Assembly (NCBI GenBank): GCA_018831195.1
Contig: JAHJDP010000004.1
Location: forward strand, 1 to 53,775
Direction: 5' to 3'
From: Candidatus Eisenbacteria bacterium
GTDB taxonomy: Bacteria > Eisenbacteria > RBG-16-71-46 > CAIMUX01 > JAHJDP01
DNA: 53,775 nt
Position numbers and translations under genes: made by a program. Under the pieces are notes generated by a model, which was not told the DNA's origin, searched no databases, and saw only the letters and a program-made list of their open reading frames with translations. Positions 35,181 through 43,633 of this stretch are shown in pieces. Positions within the stretch are counted from its first letter, which is position 1; every line of letters starts with the position of its first letter.

Positions 35181-36512
35181 GTGACGGAAATCACCAATCC
35201 CTCGGATCTCATGCGTTTTGTTAAAGACCGTGATGTGAAAATCATCAACCTGTGGTTTACCGATATTCTGGGTGTTCTGAAGAGCTTCGGTATCACGCCG
35301 ACTCAGCTGGAGGAGGCTTTGGAAGAGGGCTTGGGATTTGATGGCTCCTCGGTTGAGGGATTCGCGCGGATCTATGAGAGCGATCTCGTTGCGATGCCCG
35401 ATATCTCCACCTTCCAACTGCTTCCATGGAGAAAAGACGGGCATGTTTCGGCCCGGATGTTTTGCGATGTGTTGAATCCCGATCGGACGCCCTATGCGGA
35501 GGATCCTCGGCAGGTTCTCAAAAGAAATCTGAGGGGCGTCTCCACCGACGGTTACACCGTTTACACCGGGCCGGAACCGGAGTTCTTCTACTTCAAGTCG
35601 TCCGAGAATCCGGAAATCTTGGATCAGGCCGGTTACTTTGATCTCATCGCCGACGATCTGGGAACGAGCCTCCGCCAGAAGACGATCCAGGTGATGCAGG
35701 AGATGGGGATCGCCGTGGAGGTGGGGCATCATGAGGTGGCTCACAGCCAGCATGAGATCGATTTAAAATATACCGGCGCCCTCGAGATGGCCGATACCGT
35801 GATGACCTACCGGTATCTTGTCAAGGAGATCGCACGGCAGAACGGCGTCTATGCCACCTTCATGCCGAAACCCCTGGTGGATCAGAACGGCAGCGGGATG
35901 CATATCCACCAATCCCTTTTCCGGAATGGAGAGAATGCCTTCCATGACGCCGGGGCGGAATACAATCTTTCGTCCATCGGACGCGGCTTTATGGCCGGAC
36001 TGCTCCACCACTGCCAGGAGATTGTCGCCGTTACGAATCAGTGGGTGAATTCGTACAAGCGTCTGGTGCCTGGATATGAAGCTCCGGCCTATGTCGCCTG
36101 GGGACAGAGAAACCGGTCGGCTTTGATTCGTGTTCCAATGTACAAGCCGGGCAAAGAGAAGGCGACACGGATTGAGTTCCGGTGCCCCGATTCCGCCTGC
36201 AATCCCTATCTGGCCTTTTCGGTCATGCTGGCGGCGGGTATCGCTGGTATCAAGAATGGGTACGAGCTTCCGGCGGCGATCGAGGAAGACATCTTCCATA
36301 TGAGCCCGGCCGAGCGCGAGGAGAAGGGTATCAAATCTCTCCCTGGAAGTCTCTATGCGGCGATCCATGCCGCCGAGAACAGCCAGCTGGTAAAGGAGTC
36401 TCTCGGCGATCAGCTCTTCGAGAGGTTCCTGGCCAATAAGAGGATCGAATGGGACTCTTACCGGGTCGCGGTGACCGATTACGAGCTGAAGAAATATCTC
36501 CCGATTCTCTAA
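35181..36512 (+). CDS. glnA: Glutamine synthetase, type I (alpha-like)
   Basis: The protein has 443 residues with a GTG start after AAGGAG. It makes glutamine from glutamate, ammonia and ATP. Signature blocks are FDGSSVEGFARIYESDLVA (beta-grasp/active-site edge), YTGPEPEFFYF, VEVGHHEVAHSQHEIDL, MHIHQSLF, NSYKRLVPGYEAP and IEFRCPDSACNPYLAF. The length fits the short GSI-alpha form. At the position where GSI-beta enzymes carry the adenylylated tyrosine, this protein has EEDIFHMSPAERE with Phe, so covalent control by adenylylation is unlikely. It is 44 bases from the aldolase gene with no promoter visible between, so shared transcription is likely. Confidence 0.95.
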   Translation: MTEITNPSDLMRFVKDRDVKIINLWFTDILGVLKSFGITPTQLEEALEEGLGFDGSSVEGFARIYESDLVAMPDISTFQLLPWRKDGHVSARMFCDVLNPDRTPYAEDPRQVLKRNLRGVSTDGYTVYTGPEPEFFYFKSSENPEILDQAGYFDLIADDLGTSLRQKTIQVMQEMGIAVEVGHHEVAHSQHEIDLKYTGALEMADTVMTYRYLVKEIARQNGVYATFMPKPLVDQNGSGMHIHQSLFRNGENAFHDAGAEYNLSSIGRGFMAGLLHHCQEIVAVTNQWVNSYKRLVPGYEAPAYVAWGQRNRSALIRVPMYKPGKEKATRIEFRCPDSACNPYLAFSVMLAAGIAGIKNGYELPAAIEEDIFHMSPAEREEKGIKSLPGSLYAAIHAAENSQLVKESLGDQLFERFLANKRIEWDSYRVAVTDYELKKYLPIL

Positions 36513-38909: not shown

Positions 38910-39117
38910 TCCATTCTGCGGATGGCCCCCACTCGTCATCTTTTTGTCTCCCTTACCGGTATTCCATGTGTACAAAGTACCCATCCTAATCCATTGGGAA
39001 ATAATCGATTATATGTTTGTGCCCCCGGGTGACACCTGATGTCCCTCGATCCCCCCGAAGCAACAAGACTGCCTCGACGCGGCGAACTCTGACAATTTGG
39101 TCTAACCTTATGTTTTA

Positions 39118-39127
39118 TAACATGTTA
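39118..39127. promoter_or_regulatory. Palindrome upstream of the sigma-54-like promoter
   Basis: TAACATGTTA is a perfect 10-bp palindrome in an AT-rich stretch, ending 27 bases before the -24 element. It could be part of an activator or IHF-type site, but it is too short to be sure. Confidence 0.25.
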
Positions 39128-39153
39128 CTTAAATTTTCGGGATGTCTATCTTT

Positions 39154-39168
39154 TGGCATAAACCTTGC
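39154..39168 (+). promoter_or_regulatory. Sigma-54-like (-24/-12) promoter
   Basis: TGGCATAAACCTTGC has GG and GC exactly 10 bases apart and matches 9 of 11 conserved positions of TGGCACGN4TTGC. Transcription would start near 39180, about 18 bases ahead of a 12-bp RNA stem. Confidence 0.6.
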
Positions 39169-39179
39169 CTTACATAAAG

Positions 39180-39409
39180 AGTGAAACTAGGAAGTGTGTG
39201 TCGGTCGCGGTTCTGTTAACCCAACCCCGGCAGAGATGCGTGACCAGACGGAGGGCCCGTCGAATTACGCTTCGCGACCGACACCCGCTTGTTCAAAGGT
39301 TTTAAAGGATCTGAAAAGGCTGCTATCTTACAGTTGTTCCCGATGGGGAGCCTGGCGCCATTGCTGGTAGCGGGTGACTCCAGCAAGGACCTGGGGAAGG
39401 CGGCTTTTT
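39180..39409 (+). ncRNA. Predicted structured RNA (independent sRNA or leader of the DUF4870 gene)
   Basis: Domain 1: GTGTCGGTCGCG (39198-39209) pairs perfectly with CGCGACCGACAC (39273-39284), enclosing a nested hairpin GCGT[5]GACGG[5]CCGTC[5]ACGC (39238-39270). Domain 2: TTGCTGG (39361-39367) pairs with CCAGCAA (39380-39386) inside a CGCC/GGCG and AGC/GCT outer helix (39349-39405) followed by five Ts, resembling an intrinsic terminator. Start and end fit the sigma-54-like promoter and the T-run. I do not recognise the family. Either it is a stand-alone RNA of about 230 bases, or transcription partly reads through into the DUF4870 gene (attenuation). Confidence 0.5.
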
Positions 39410-39504
39410 CAATGCCCTCGTCTTTGAGCCTCCCATACATTGCACCCCGTCGGCTTGGCGATCGATTCATTCTTTGTCTTTAACAATAGAGGAGGTCGTT
39501 AACC

Positions 39505-39942
39505 GTGAGCTTTCAGGAGAAAGAAAGTTCCGAAAAAAGGGTGTGGGGCGCCGGCGCCTACTTTCTTGGGGCGGTTGGGGCTGTCGTGGTTCTTCTTGTC
39601 CGGCGGGAACCCTTCTGCCGGTTTCATGCGGTTCAATCGATTATCACGACGGTTGTTCTTTTTCTGGTGGGTCTATTGTTAAAAGGGCTTGCCTATCTTC
39701 CGATCTTTGGCTTCCTCTATGGCTTCCTCTTCCGGCTTTTCCAGGTCGGCGTTTTTGCGCTCTGGATCTTTCTGATGTTTCAAGCCTGGCGGGGACGGCA
39801 GTATCGGTTGCCCTATATCGGTTCATGGGCCGAGGATTCAGCCGGACCGCAGGAAAACCCCAAGCCGGTTCCACTCGATGCAAGGGAACGCCCGGCTGAT
39901 GCGACGGCCACGCCGCGGGATGATGCGGACGTTACGAAATAG
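39505..39942 (+). CDS. DUF4870/Tic20-like membrane protein
   Basis: The protein has 145 residues; GTG 39505 lies eight bases after AGGAGGT. It contains three to four hydrophobic helices with the DUF4870 hallmark: GAYFLGAVGAVVVLL, then REPFCRFHAVQSIITTVVLFLV (normally FHAxQSI), then a helical hairpin FLYGFLFRLFQVGVFALWIFL and YRLPYIGSWAE. The last 45 residues are charged and likely disordered. Members are small inner-membrane proteins without an established biochemical function. It is transcribed downstream of the sigma-54-like promoter and structured RNA. Confidence 0.8.
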   Translation: MSFQEKESSEKRVWGAGAYFLGAVGAVVVLLVRREPFCRFHAVQSIITTVVLFLVGLLLKGLAYLPIFGFLYGFLFRLFQVGVFALWIFLMFQAWRGRQYRLPYIGSWAEDSAGPQENPKPVPLDARERPADATATPRDDADVTK

Positions 39943-40104: not shown

Positions 40105-40668
40105 TTAGGATAAGGGTGCCGGATTTTCCCATGGCTCTTCCGGATCTTTCAGGATGAGATGAACCTCACGAGCCCAGAGAAAGAGCAAATCACTCAATCG
40201 GTTGAGATAGATGATGATGCCGGGGGGAACCGGTTCCTCCCGATGGAGGGAGATGAGACGCCGCTCAGCCCGGCGGCAGAGGGTCCGGCTGCTGTGGAGG
40301 AAGGCGGCGGCGGGCGGGCCGGCTGGGCGGATGAACTGCCGCAGCCGCGGGAGTTTGGCCTCCAACTCGTTAATACGTTTCTCGAGCCTCGCGATGGATC
40401 GATCCGCTTCCGGCCAGAGGGTTTCCGAACCGGGTACCGGTTGTTTGGAGATCACGGCGCCCATGCTCAGGAGATCATCCTGAACCCGCCCCAGGTCGGA
40501 TTTGGTTTCCGATAGAGATCCCGGCAGGTGAGCTCTGACAAGGCCGAGGCCTGCGGCGAGTTCATCGAATTGCCCGCAGACCTCTATCCTGAGATGATCC
40601 TTGGGAACCCGGCGACCTCCCTGGAGGTCGGTTTCCCCGCCGTCACCCCGTCCTGTTGAAATGCTCAT
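40105..40668 (-). CDS. Cob(I)alamin adenosyltransferase, PduO type
   Basis: The protein has 187 residues from ATG 40668, which overlaps the nrdJ stop as ATGA, so translation is coupled. It adds the adenosyl group of ATP to cob(I)alamin, making adenosylcobalamin. The N-terminal ATP-binding signature is STGRGDGGETDLQGGRRVPKD, followed by LRIEVCGQFDELAAGLGLV; the C-terminal helix with LNRLSDLLFLWARE contains the conserved Asp/Arg trimer-interface residues. Length and motifs fit the PduO (not CobA or EutT) family. An upstream extension to 40701 exists but has no ribosome site. The coupling to a B12-dependent ribonucleotide reductase indicates that the coenzyme is made for that enzyme. Confidence 0.93.
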   Translation of the reverse strand: MSISTGRGDGGETDLQGGRRVPKDHLRIEVCGQFDELAAGLGLVRAHLPGSLSETKSDLGRVQDDLLSMGAVISKQPVPGSETLWPEADRSIARLEKRINELEAKLPRLRQFIRPAGPPAAAFLHSSRTLCRRAERRLISLHREEPVPPGIIIYLNRLSDLLFLWAREVHLILKDPEEPWENPAPLS

Positions 40669-43439
40669 GAACAACCACTGGAGCTTCCGCAGTTTAAACA
40701 TTTATAGCAGGAAGCGCTGCGGATCATCATGGAGCCGCAATCGGTGCAGATCGGCGCGTCGGATTGAGCGACAAAGGTCGGATTGTCCTGTAGGAAAGTG
40801 GAGCTCTCCCCAAGAAGACCGTCGATGTCCCGGGATCCGCCGTTGTTGTTCTGTCCGTGATTCGACTCGGTATGTTTGACCTTGAATCGGTTGGCTTCAT
40901 CTTCCGGCAGGAATTTCAAGGCGAGCCACCGGAAAATATAATCCACGACCGATTTTGCAAACCGAATATCCGGGTGAGTCGTCATCCCGGAAGGCTCAAA
41001 GCGGACATGGCTGAACTTTCTCACCAAGACCCTCAGGGGCACACCGTACTGAAGAGAGAGGGAGATGGTCGTGGCGAAGGAATCCATGACTCCTGAGAGT
41101 GTTGAACCTTCTTTGGACATGACGATGAAGATTTCTCCCGGTGTCCCATCCTCGAACATTCCGACCGTCAGATATCCCTTGTGCCCACCGATTGTAAATT
41201 TATGTGTCAGGGCCTGGCGCTCTTCCGGCAGTTGGCGGCGATAAGGAACGCGAGGCTGTTCACGCGTGCTGCTCTTGCTGTCCTTCCCGGTTGTTAGAGG
41301 TTGGACCGATTTGGAACCGTCCCTGTAAATGGCAACCGATTTCAATCCAAGCTTCCAAGCCTCGATGTAGGTCTGGGCGATCTCGTCCACCGTCGCTGTT
41401 TCAGGGAGATTCACCGTTTTACTGATGGCGCCGCTGATGAAGGGCTGCACCGCGCTCATCATATGGAGATGTCCCATATAATCGATGAAACGCTTGCCGT
41501 TGATGGGCTGGAAAGCGCAGTCGAAGACAGGGAGGTGTTCCGATTTCACCTCCGGGCTCCCCTCGATGGTTCCTTGTTCATCGATATACTTCAGAATCGA
41601 GCCCACCGTTTCAGGAGAATAACCCAGTCTTTCGAGGGCGTGGGGTACGGTCTGATTTACGATCTTCAACATTCCACCGCCGACCAGTTTCTTGTACTTA
41701 ACCAAGGCTATGTCCGGTTCGACGCCGGTCGTGTCGCAATCCATCATGAAGGCGATCGTGCCGGTGGGCGCCAACACGGTAACCTGCGAATTGCGGACAC
41801 CGGCGGTTTCAGCGAGTGAAATGGCGTTGTCCCAGGCTTCGGTCGCCGAGGCGAGAAGTTCGCTGGGAACGAGCCGCGCATTGATCTTATCGAGTTGGTA
41901 CCGGTGTTTCCGAATAACCCGGATCTGAGGTTCGCTGTTCTTGGCAAAAGCCGGATAGGGACCGAGTTTCTCCGCCAGCTCACCCGATACTTCGTAGGCA
42001 TGGCCGCTCATCAAGGCGGTGATTGTCGCCGCCCAAGCGCGCCCTTCATCGGAATCATAGGGCAGCCCCAGCGTCATCAGCAGGGCGCCTAGATTCGCGA
42101 AGCCTAAACCCAGTTGGTGGCAATCCCGTGAATTTTGCGTGATCTTCGCCGTGGGATACGATGCGTTATCGACAAGGATATCCTGCGCGATGATCATCAC
42201 CCGCACCGCATGCCGGAACTGTTCAATAAGGAAGTTTCCATCCTCATCCAGGAACTTGGTCAGGTTGATGCTGGCGAGATTACAGGCCGAGTCATCGAGA
42301 TGCATATACTCCGAACAGGGATTGCTGGCGTTGATTCGGCCCGAATTGGGGCATGTATGCCAATCATTGATCGTGGTATCGAATTGGATGCCCGGATCGC
42401 CGCAGTGCCAAGCCGCCTCGGAGATGAGACGAAGAAGTTCCTTCGCCTTAATCCGTTCAATCCGCTCACCCGTGGTGACCGCCTTCAATTCCCAATCCTC
42501 ATCGTTGAGGGCGCGTCGCATGAATTCATCTGAGACGCGGACGGAATTGTTGGCGTTTTGAAAAAAGACCGAGCTGTAAGCATCGCCGTCGATCGAGGGA
42601 TTGTATCCGGCTTCGATCAACTTATGGGCTTTCTCCTCCTCCTTCCACTTACAGACGACAAACTCCTCGATGTCAGGATGATCGGCGTTAAGCACCACCA
42701 TCTTCGCGGCCCGTCGCGTTTTTCCGCCCGACTTGATCACTCCGGCGGAGGCGTCGGCGGCGCGCATAAAGGAGACCGGTCCGGAGGGTGTGCCGCCGCC
42801 TGAAAGGGGTTCCCTCGAGGAGCGGATCGGGGAGGCGTTCACACCTGATCCCGAACCGTGTTTGAAAATCATTCCCTCTTTGCGATACCACTCCAAAATG
42901 GAATCCATGGTGTCTTTTACAGAGAGGATAAAACAGGCTGAACATTGCGGTTTGGCTTCAATGCCGACATTGAACCAAACCGGCGAGTTGAAAGAGGTGT
43001 GCTGGGTGACCAGAAGATAGTGCAACTCATCCCGGAAGGCCGAGGCATCACTTTCTCTGTCGAAATACCCATCGCGAATGCCCCAATCAGCGATCGTGTT
43101 CGCAACCCTGCCGATCATCTGCTTGACGCTTTTCTCGCGTTGCGGCGTTCCCAGCGCGCCGCGAAAATATTTTGAAACCACAACATTTGTCGCCATCTGC
43201 GACCAGAACTCCGGCACTTCGACATTCTTTTGGTCAAAGATGACCTCGCCGGATTCATTGGTCAATGTGGCGGAACGGATGTCCCAGGTTATTGTATCAA
43301 AAGGGTGTAACCCCTCTTTTGTAAAAAGGCGCCGGAAGGTTAAGCCCTTCCCCGTCCGACAGATCTCGACTCCTTCCCTGGATGAAGCCATAGACTGTGT
43401 GGATGGAGCTTCGGTGCGTGGCGCTTGCGGTTTCAACAT
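40665..43439 (-). CDS. nrdJ: Adenosylcobalamin-dependent ribonucleoside-diphosphate reductase (class II)
   Basis: The product has 924 residues from ATG 43439, chosen because AAGGAGG lies five bases upstream; the longer frame to 43586 is not supported. It reduces ribonucleotides to deoxyribonucleotides using a radical generated from coenzyme B12, independent of oxygen. Recognisable blocks are TSFNSPVWFNVG, CSACFILSV, KHGSGSGVNASPIRS, the active-site NPCSEYMHLDDSACNLASINL cut here, APTGTIAFMMDCDTTG and YRDGSKSVQPL. The C-terminus ends in a cysteine-rich cluster (CTDCGSM, CYKCLNCGSSSGCS) that can re-reduce the active site or bind zinc, as in the long NrdJ subtype. Tandem NrdR boxes and a -10 element precede it, and the coupled adenosyltransferase follows. 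Confidence 0.96.
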   Translation of the reverse strand: MLKPQAPRTEAPSTQSMASSREGVEICRTGKGLTFRRLFTKEGLHPFDTITWDIRSATLTNESGEVIFDQKNVEVPEFWSQMATNVVVSKYFRGALGTPQREKSVKQMIGRVANTIADWGIRDGYFDRESDASAFRDELHYLLVTQHTSFNSPVWFNVGIEAKPQCSACFILSVKDTMDSILEWYRKEGMIFKHGSGSGVNASPIRSSREPLSGGGTPSGPVSFMRAADASAGVIKSGGKTRRAAKMVVLNADHPDIEEFVVCKWKEEEKAHKLIEAGYNPSIDGDAYSSVFFQNANNSVRVSDEFMRRALNDEDWELKAVTTGERIERIKAKELLRLISEAAWHCGDPGIQFDTTINDWHTCPNSGRINASNPCSEYMHLDDSACNLASINLTKFLDEDGNFLIEQFRHAVRVMIIAQDILVDNASYPTAKITQNSRDCHQLGLGFANLGALLMTLGLPYDSDEGRAWAATITALMSGHAYEVSGELAEKLGPYPAFAKNSEPQIRVIRKHRYQLDKINARLVPSELLASATEAWDNAISLAETAGVRNSQVTVLAPTGTIAFMMDCDTTGVEPDIALVKYKKLVGGGMLKIVNQTVPHALERLGYSPETVGSILKYIDEQGTIEGSPEVKSEHLPVFDCAFQPINGKRFIDYMGHLHMMSAVQPFISGAISKTVNLPETATVDEIAQTYIEAWKLGLKSVAIYRDGSKSVQPLTTGKDSKSSTREQPRVPYRRQLPEERQALTHKFTIGGHKGYLTVGMFEDGTPGEIFIVMSKEGSTLSGVMDSFATTISLSLQYGVPLRVLVRKFSHVRFEPSGMTTHPDIRFAKSVVDYIFRWLALKFLPEDEANRFKVKHTESNHGQNNNGGSRDIDGLLGESSTFLQDNPTFVAQSDAPICTDCGSMMIRSASCYKCLNCGSSSGCS

Positions 43440-43460
43440 TCGTTCCTCCTTGTCCGCCCA

Positions 43461-43488
43461 CGGCATGAAAAACTCATGTCCCATGCCG
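43461..43488 (-). promoter_or_regulatory. Leader hairpin of nrdJ
   Basis: CGGCATG and CATGCCG form a perfect 7-bp stem with a 14-base loop, between the -10 element (43494-43499) and the ribosome site (43445-43451). It might modulate translation. It does not look like a cobalamin riboswitch. Confidence 0.35.
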
Positions 43489-43493
43489 CAAAA

Positions 43494-43523
43494 AGTATAC
43501 CGCAAGAGAAGCTCAAATGAAAA
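43494..43523 (-). promoter_or_regulatory. Likely nrdJ promoter
   Basis: The minus strand reads TTTTCA (43523-43518), 18 bases, then TATACT (43499-43494). The NrdR boxes lie directly upstream. The leader to the ATG would be about 45-50 bases. Confidence 0.45.
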
Positions 43524-43528
43524 TATAT

Positions 43529-43544
43529 ACACAATATCTAGTGG
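43529..43544 (-). promoter_or_regulatory. NrdR box 1
   Basis: ACACAATATCTAGTGG matches 14 of 16 positions of the NrdR consensus ACACWATATATWGTGT (established for ATP/dATP-sensing NrdR repressors). It ends six bases from the -35 element of nrdJ. Confidence 0.7.
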
Positions 43545-43560
43545 TGCAGAGGTGATGCTA

Positions 43561-43576
43561 ACCCTAGGTCTTGTGT
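43561..43576 (-). promoter_or_regulatory. NrdR box 2
   Basis: ACCCTAGGTCTTGTGT matches 12 of 16 consensus positions and starts exactly 32 bases from box 1, i.e. three helical turns, the spacing at which NrdR boxes are usually paired. Confidence 0.6.
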
Positions 43577-43633
43577 TCGTCAACACGATTCGAGAGAAGC
43601 CTCGATGTTTTCTTTTTTTGTCATCGATAACCG

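Follow-up and report, generated by a model that had tools for sequence, protein, structure and literature searches.

A putative sigma-54-dependent small RNA of Candidatus Eisenbacteria, its conserved C-rich loop and its candidate activator

The DNA analysed here (the window) is a stretch of 53,775 nucleotides of contig JAHJDP010000004.1, from a Candidatus Eisenbacteria bacterium. Between positions 35181 and 39942 it carries, in this order, glnA, a lipoprotein-like gene, a gene for a PorV-like outer-membrane protein, the RNA considered here and a gene for a DUF4870-like protein. This order is largely kept in family f3 of the phylum, and speA follows on the opposite strand in families f2 and f3. 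On the minus strand, at 40105-43586, a cobalamin adenosyltransferase gene lies beside the gene of a class II (B12-dependent) ribonucleotide reductase. Genomes and families of the phylum are given below as G and f numbers, the window belonging to G000 (f1). The features of the locus are the following:

38968-38982, + strand: predicted upstream activator dyad GTGTACAAAGTACCC, consensus GGNTAC-N3-GTANCC with one mismatch, about 180 bp before the GG of the -24 box
39153-39168, + strand: sigma-54 -24/-12 element TTGGCATAAACCTTGC, exact GG-N10-GC, with a counterpart in 9/9 homologues
39180-39411, + strand: predicted sRNA of about 230 nt, fold z -4.1, covariance model match at 39197-39285
39198-39284, + strand: 5' domain, with P1 (39198-39209 / 39273-39284) closing a three-way junction; 12/14 P1 pairs compensated in nine homologues
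39211-39235, + strand: P2 hairpin with the conserved C-rich loop AACCCAACCCC; CCCAACCCC at 39220-39228; CCAACCCCGGCAG identical in 9/9 homologues
39238-39270, + strand: P3 hairpin of the 5' domain, both-side changes at 4/8 pairs
39312-39411, + strand: 3' domain, a long hairpin with conserved GGCUGC/GCGGC base, internal loops and a T-run at 39405-39409; same shape in six f1-f3 homologues
39505-39942, + strand: gene of a DUF4870-like small membrane protein, start GTG; a neighbour outside the RNA unit, absent downstream in G001 and f6

The 5' end of the RNA was placed by inference about 12 nt past the GC of the -12 box. The region 39180-39412 folds at -101.4 kcal/mol compared to -80.5 kcal/mol for shuffled sequences (z -4.1), and the RNA consists of two domains: a three-way junction, where P1 closes P2 and P3, and a long 3' hairpin with five Ts. 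The 12-bp perfect long-range stem reported in a preliminary description of the window is exact, with GTGTCGGTCGCG (39198-39209) pairing with CGCGACCGACAC (39273-39284). It does enclose a hairpin, as had been described, but there are two of them (P2 and P3) and not one. The second hairpin ending in five Ts was also found where it had been noticed, and it probably doubles as the terminator. Concerning the conserved parts, the P2 loop CCAACCCC shows no variation across the nine homologues, and the 3' domain has the general shape GGCUGC...CAG...CUGGG...GCGGC in the six f1-f3 copies, the 3' part being different in f6. A pseudoknot between the CCCC of the loop and a GGGG of the 3' domain was considered and discarded, since G002 and G003 do not retain the GGGG and the 3' domain of f6 is a different one.

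Homologues of the RNA were found in 9 of the 47 genomes of the phylum, the window's genome included: f1 (the window), f2 (G001-G003), f3 (G004 and G005) and f6 (G012-G014). A DNA search of the 47 genomes gave three short matches in f2, and a search with the loop pattern added both f3 genomes. The initial covariance model (MAFFT alignment, RNAalifold structure) was poor and a hand-set structure was used instead; the first model made in this way, built from five of the six f1-f3 sequences, detected the six f1-f3 copies at E-values of 3e-8 to 4e-16. The three f6 copies were added by covariance model at about 0.004-0.013, and they are credible since the loop CCAACCCCGGCAG, P1 and P3 are conserved in them and each has its own -24/-12 element. 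A second model including f6 recovered the same nine and no others in 385 relatives, with none in the approximately 340 genomes from outside the phylum. In the window, the two models matched 39197-39285 at 3.0e-8 and 2.2e-10, the window sequence itself being among the model sequences. Low-scoring matches in G026, G028 and contig C87 of G000 (E 0.03-0.46) were judged to be chance. The RNA was not found in f4, f5 and f7-f11, absences that are soft because some genomes are incomplete.

In the alignment of the nine sequences, whose fitting to the model works in favour of pairing, 88.8% of the cells pair. Changes on both sides were observed in 19 of the 32 pairs. Shuffling gave 8.4, with none of 500 shuffles reaching 19, and sliding the structure gave 4-6. 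The proposed helices therefore carry the compensatory changes of a structured RNA family, and the structured RNA that had been described ahead of the DUF4870-like gene is supported. Uncompensated substitutions breaking the 12-bp stem in relatives had been named as evidence against it; the stem instead covaries, with compensatory change at 12 of the 14 pairs of P1. Furthermore, homologues differ by indels of 1-2 nt beside the conserved loop, which may point away from a conserved reading frame.

The RNA had been considered unrecognised, and the search of Rfam release 15 (4227 models) at gathering thresholds gave no match in the window, nor in the RNA of eight homologues. A permissive search near the RNA returned one chance snoRNA match (E 8.1), and no relation to the Qrr family was found by the Rfam search. 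Regarding this data, 39180-39411 is most likely an RNA of a new family that is not in Rfam.

Two options had been left for this RNA, a stand-alone sRNA or an attenuated leader. As an attenuated leader or a riboswitch it would control the DUF4870-like gene in cis, and a DUF4870-like gene does follow the terminator-like hairpin on the same strand in the window, G002, G003 and G004. The start of this gene at 39505 was as described, and its name is fair by homology since orthologues of the protein match Pfam DUF4870 (E 1.6e-7, 1.5e-5 and 5.4e-7), although the window's own protein falls below DUF4870 in Pfam. However, the next gene is a convergent speA in G001 and an O-antigen ligase in G012, and about 400 nt past the RNA in G013 and G014 there is a gene for a kinase-AAA-TPR-GAF-sigma54-Fis protein of 1754 and 1798 aa, respectively. 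The RNA is thus not always placed before one regulated gene, and the loop and the promoter stay fixed while the downstream gene changes. Moreover, separate strong intrinsic terminators are located just past the 3' domain in G001, G002 and G003, before any gene. The varying downstream gene and these terminators make a cis role for DUF4870 very improbable, and for the same reasons the RNA is most likely a stand-alone sRNA. Upstream of it, the PorV-like gene is kept in f1-f3.

The sigma-54-like element that had been noticed at 39154-39168 is exact at 39153-39168. In the window, TTGGCA-N6-TTGC has one exact match, TTGGCATAAACCTTGC, and with one mismatch allowed it has 3 matches compared to 3.2 expected, so the element of the window taken alone would be weak evidence. 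All nine copies of the RNA have GG-N10-GC at exact spacing inside a TGGCA-type -24 element, and the element lies upstream of the loop at a distance of 58-66 nt. This is the exactly spaced -24/-12 at a fixed distance that belongs to a sigma-54 transcription unit. What takes the RNA and its promoter above chance is conservation: nine homologues, covariation and a correctly spaced -24/-12 in all of them.

Further upstream, the right half of the putative dyad, GTAYCCAY, is present at a constant position in six of the eight homologues with enough upstream DNA, being located at -241 to -247 nt from the loop in f1, f2 and f6. Measured to the GG of the -24 box, the dyad-like sequence lies 178-186 bp upstream in six homologues. 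Both f3 copies present a different palindrome at about this place (GGTGGCACC-N3-GGTGCCACC in G004). The -24/-12 and the upstream dyad are arranged as in a sigma-54 promoter that has a putative site for an enhancer-binding protein (bEBP), the candidate enhancer site being this dyad in six homologues and the other palindrome in f3. The RNA family, its fold, its sigma-54 promoter and the dyad are all supported by comparison.

Sites combining the dyad with a sigma-54 element were also counted in 1.6 Mb of G012. There were 4, inside the control range of 0-4, and the extra sites at 555950 and 1816484 were dropped as regulon members. The first of them (G012:C1:555950) is a one-mismatch dyad-like site with TGGCACGATTTGTGC before a gene whose N-terminus is carboxypeptidase-like/TonB-receptor-like, and it is no more than chance would give. 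In G002, a -24/-12 with a TATCCAT half-site precedes an HSP20 small heat-shock gene (G002:C56:179587-179774; L119, L123:3966-4418), which may also be chance.

The likely activator of the RNA is a candidate TPR-GAF-AAA+-Fis enhancer-binding protein, whose gene in the window's genome is located at G000:C12:171312-174149. The right half of the dyad together with the -24/-12 pattern was searched across the phylum, and single matches mean little since a reversed control pattern gave a similar total. Two orthologous matches, in G012 and G013, have perfect dyads (GGTTACTCGGTATCC and GGTTACTTGGTATCC) and precede a small secreted-protein ORF followed by a TPR-Sigma54_activat-AAA_lid-HTH_8 protein of 1034 and 1056 aa, respectively. 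Its middle region would be GAF-like judging from related bEBPs, without a Pfam score in these two proteins. The third f6 genome has the same arrangement, and a perfect dyad with a -24/-12 (180-182 bp) is thus found ahead of a TPR-Sigma54_activat-HTH_8 gene in all f6 genomes.

In G000, the C12 protein is the best match to the f6 bEBPs in its own genome (38% identity). Its operon, a term used in this work by gene spacing alone, is preceded by two perfect dyads, one of which (GGATACAAAGTACCC) is near-identical to GTGTACAAAGTACCC of the window, and by an imperfect -12 box (TAGG-N10-GT). In G015 of f7, a perfect dyad lies 186 bp before TGGCATGTCTCCTGC, followed by a small D-rich ORF and then by the first part of a TPR protein with the f6 bEBPs as best matches. 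On the other hand, the activator operon of f2 and f3 has no dyad and its promoters appear to be of the TTGACA type, which would leave autoregulation to f6, f7 and perhaps f1. This, and the other palindrome at the upstream site of the RNA in f3, are evidence against the explanation favoured here.

A tree of 30 TPR bEBPs, made by a quick method and including mainly the best match of each genome, has one clade with a support of 97 that contains exactly the nine RNA-bearing genomes and G015. The recognition helix of this clade is of the LGLSRKGL type compared to SYPTLL-like helices in the other TPR bEBPs examined, the G005 copy being cut before the helix. The shared dyad and this co-occurrence are the evidence for the activator, whose binding is putative.

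Another bEBP could activate the sRNA, the dyad shared with the TPR-GAF operon being then a coincidence. These genomes have many bEBPs, and an example would be the large kinase-bEBP that G013 and G014 encode about 400 nt past the RNA. However, this protein has no close match in the other RNA-bearing genomes at E 1e-100. The TPR-GAF clade, in contrast, co-occurs with the RNA in 9/9 genomes and its operon has perfect dyads in f6, f7 and f1. A different activator is therefore improbable, and the TPR-GAF protein is kept as the candidate. In other genomes, a search next to the loci of the kinase-bEBP and of other bEBPs gave no copy of the RNA.

Regarding possible targets, the leader of the activator operon matches the RNA loop by complementarity. 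In each of the three f6 genomes GGGGTTGGA is located 36-37 nt upstream of the small ORF, and in G000 AGGGTTGGA is located 27 nt upstream of it. The common motif of these leaders is GGG(G)TTGGA. Among about 27 other upstream regions of TPR bEBPs, GGGTTGG was found in one, far upstream. When the loop-leader duplex was compared with shuffled leaders, values at or below 0.04 were obtained in six of the eight RNA-bearing genomes tested (G012, 0.01; G014, 0.004; G013, 0.04; G000, 0.038; G003, 0.008; G002, 0.02), a prediction and not a proof, as the motif was already known when the test was run and the f6 genomes do not count as independent cases. The same test did not support pairing in G001 (0.15) and G005 (0.36), and gave 0.85 in G015, where the RNA was not found. 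In G012, only 4 of 1350 predicted start regions pair with the loop as well as the leader does, and of 40 shuffled loops, 4 reach the pairing of the true loop with this leader. In G003 the site overlaps the TTGACA-type promoter, so it may not be transcribed. A genome-wide excess of GGGGTTGG in G012 start regions was also considered and was slight and unconvincing (4 sites; rank 2 of 27 permutations).

The loop-complementary leaders in f6 and in the window's genome suggest a feedback like that of LuxO/Qrr. The target would likely be repressed, given that the site is placed directly before the ribosome-binding region, as in the case of sX13 (PMC3771888). Alternatively, the RNA could bind a protein through its C-rich or internal loops, acting, like CrcZ or CsrB, as a sponge or scaffold and not on mRNA. 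The sequences of the loop and of the 3' internal loops are unusually conserved, as would be expected for a protein site, and CrcZ is likewise driven by sigma-54 and a bEBP (PMC6296734). However, there is a single copy of the loop and not repeated sites, and complementary G-rich sites are found in the activator leader of several lineages. This role is thus unlikely.

Taken as a whole, the preferred reading, with a probability of roughly two in three, is a stand-alone trans-acting sRNA driven by sigma-54 and a bEBP, whose C-rich loop pairs with leaders including that of the activator operon. The TPR-GAF bEBP would sense a signal and bind the dyad about 180 bp upstream, triggering sigma-54 RNA polymerase at the -24/-12 element to produce the sRNA 39180-39411. 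The loop CC(C)AACCCC would then pair with GGG(G)UUGG-type sites near translation starts. A probable target is the operon of the activator itself (small secreted protein and activator), at its leader, which would close a feedback loop. The upstream dyad, the invariant C-rich loop and the candidate activator and target go beyond the preliminary description. In this mechanism we infer the dyad-binding protein, the loop-mRNA pairing, the target and the sign of regulation.

A more specific version can be proposed only tentatively. According to it, the circuit is confined to this phylum as far as searched. The TPR-GAF bEBP, whose gene follows that of a small secreted D-rich protein, would use the same dyad to switch on both its own operon and a single sigma-54 sRNA, and the C-rich loop of this sRNA would pair with the operon leader. 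The LuxO/Qrr feedback design would then have been invented independently, the RNA and the sensor being unrelated.

The RNA would be a new family inside an already known kind of circuit. In Vibrio, the sigma-54 activator LuxO drives the structured Qrr sRNAs, which repress luxO translation (PMC8043402), and the proposed path here would likewise go from a sigma-54 activator to a structured sRNA and back to the activator mRNA. Nevertheless, Qrrs are multi-copy and Hfq-mediated and LuxO is a two-component response regulator, whereas the candidate bEBP has TPR and GAF-like regions and the RNA has no Rfam match. In Enterobacteriaceae, the GlrR/GlmY-GlmZ system has the palindromic upstream bEBP site TGTC-N10-GACA (PMC4987338). 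The present RNA would resemble GlmY in being a stand-alone sRNA with a sigma-54 promoter and a palindromic upstream site (the putative GGNTAC-N3-GTANCC), but the RNA and the site are different and only one strong RNA copy was found. GlmY works via the processing of GlmZ.

In Pseudomonas, CbrB binds three non-palindromic subsites and CrcZ sequesters the repressor Crc (PMC6296734). CrcZ is also a sigma-54 small RNA driven by a bEBP, as predicted here, but here there are one dyad and one C-rich loop. In Xanthomonas, the apical C-rich loops of sX13, placed on stable stems, need G-rich motifs near the translation starts of its targets (PMC3771888). A C-rich apical loop on a stable stem with G-rich sites near translation starts is also predicted in this case, but sX13 has three C-rich loops and Rfam gives no link between them. 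To our knowledge, there is no bEBP circuit for sX13.

An RNA family absent from Rfam is proposed from sequence together with its promoter, enhancer, candidate activator and candidate target. If the feedback pairing were true, an activator-sRNA-activator loop of the Vibrio quorum-sensing type would have had an independent origin, from another sensor (TPR-GAF) and another RNA. In that case it would also give a handle on the role of the abundant TPR-type enhancer-binding proteins.

Ahead of many genes of this type in the phylum (L118, L125-L127, L155, L157-L161, L165 and L166) lies a gene for a small and variable protein, either secreted or of the membrane, that has a D-rich motif (GDPDD or GDADE, for example), and the two genes form a recurring module. 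The giant genes of G013 (L091:7813-13077) and G014 (L092:9116-14512) encode Ser/Thr kinase-AAA-TPR-GAF-sigma54-activator-Fis proteins of 1754 and 1798 aa, respectively, and are followed by a partial sigma-54-activator protein and then by the O-antigen ligase. Finally, at L115 in f4 (G008:C166:6789-6977), a -24/-12 lies just past the 3' end of a TPR-bEBP gene and is followed by a non-coding stretch and the terminator-like hairpin GGGCCCGCCGAAAGGCGGGCCC, which is possibly a different sigma-54 sRNA.
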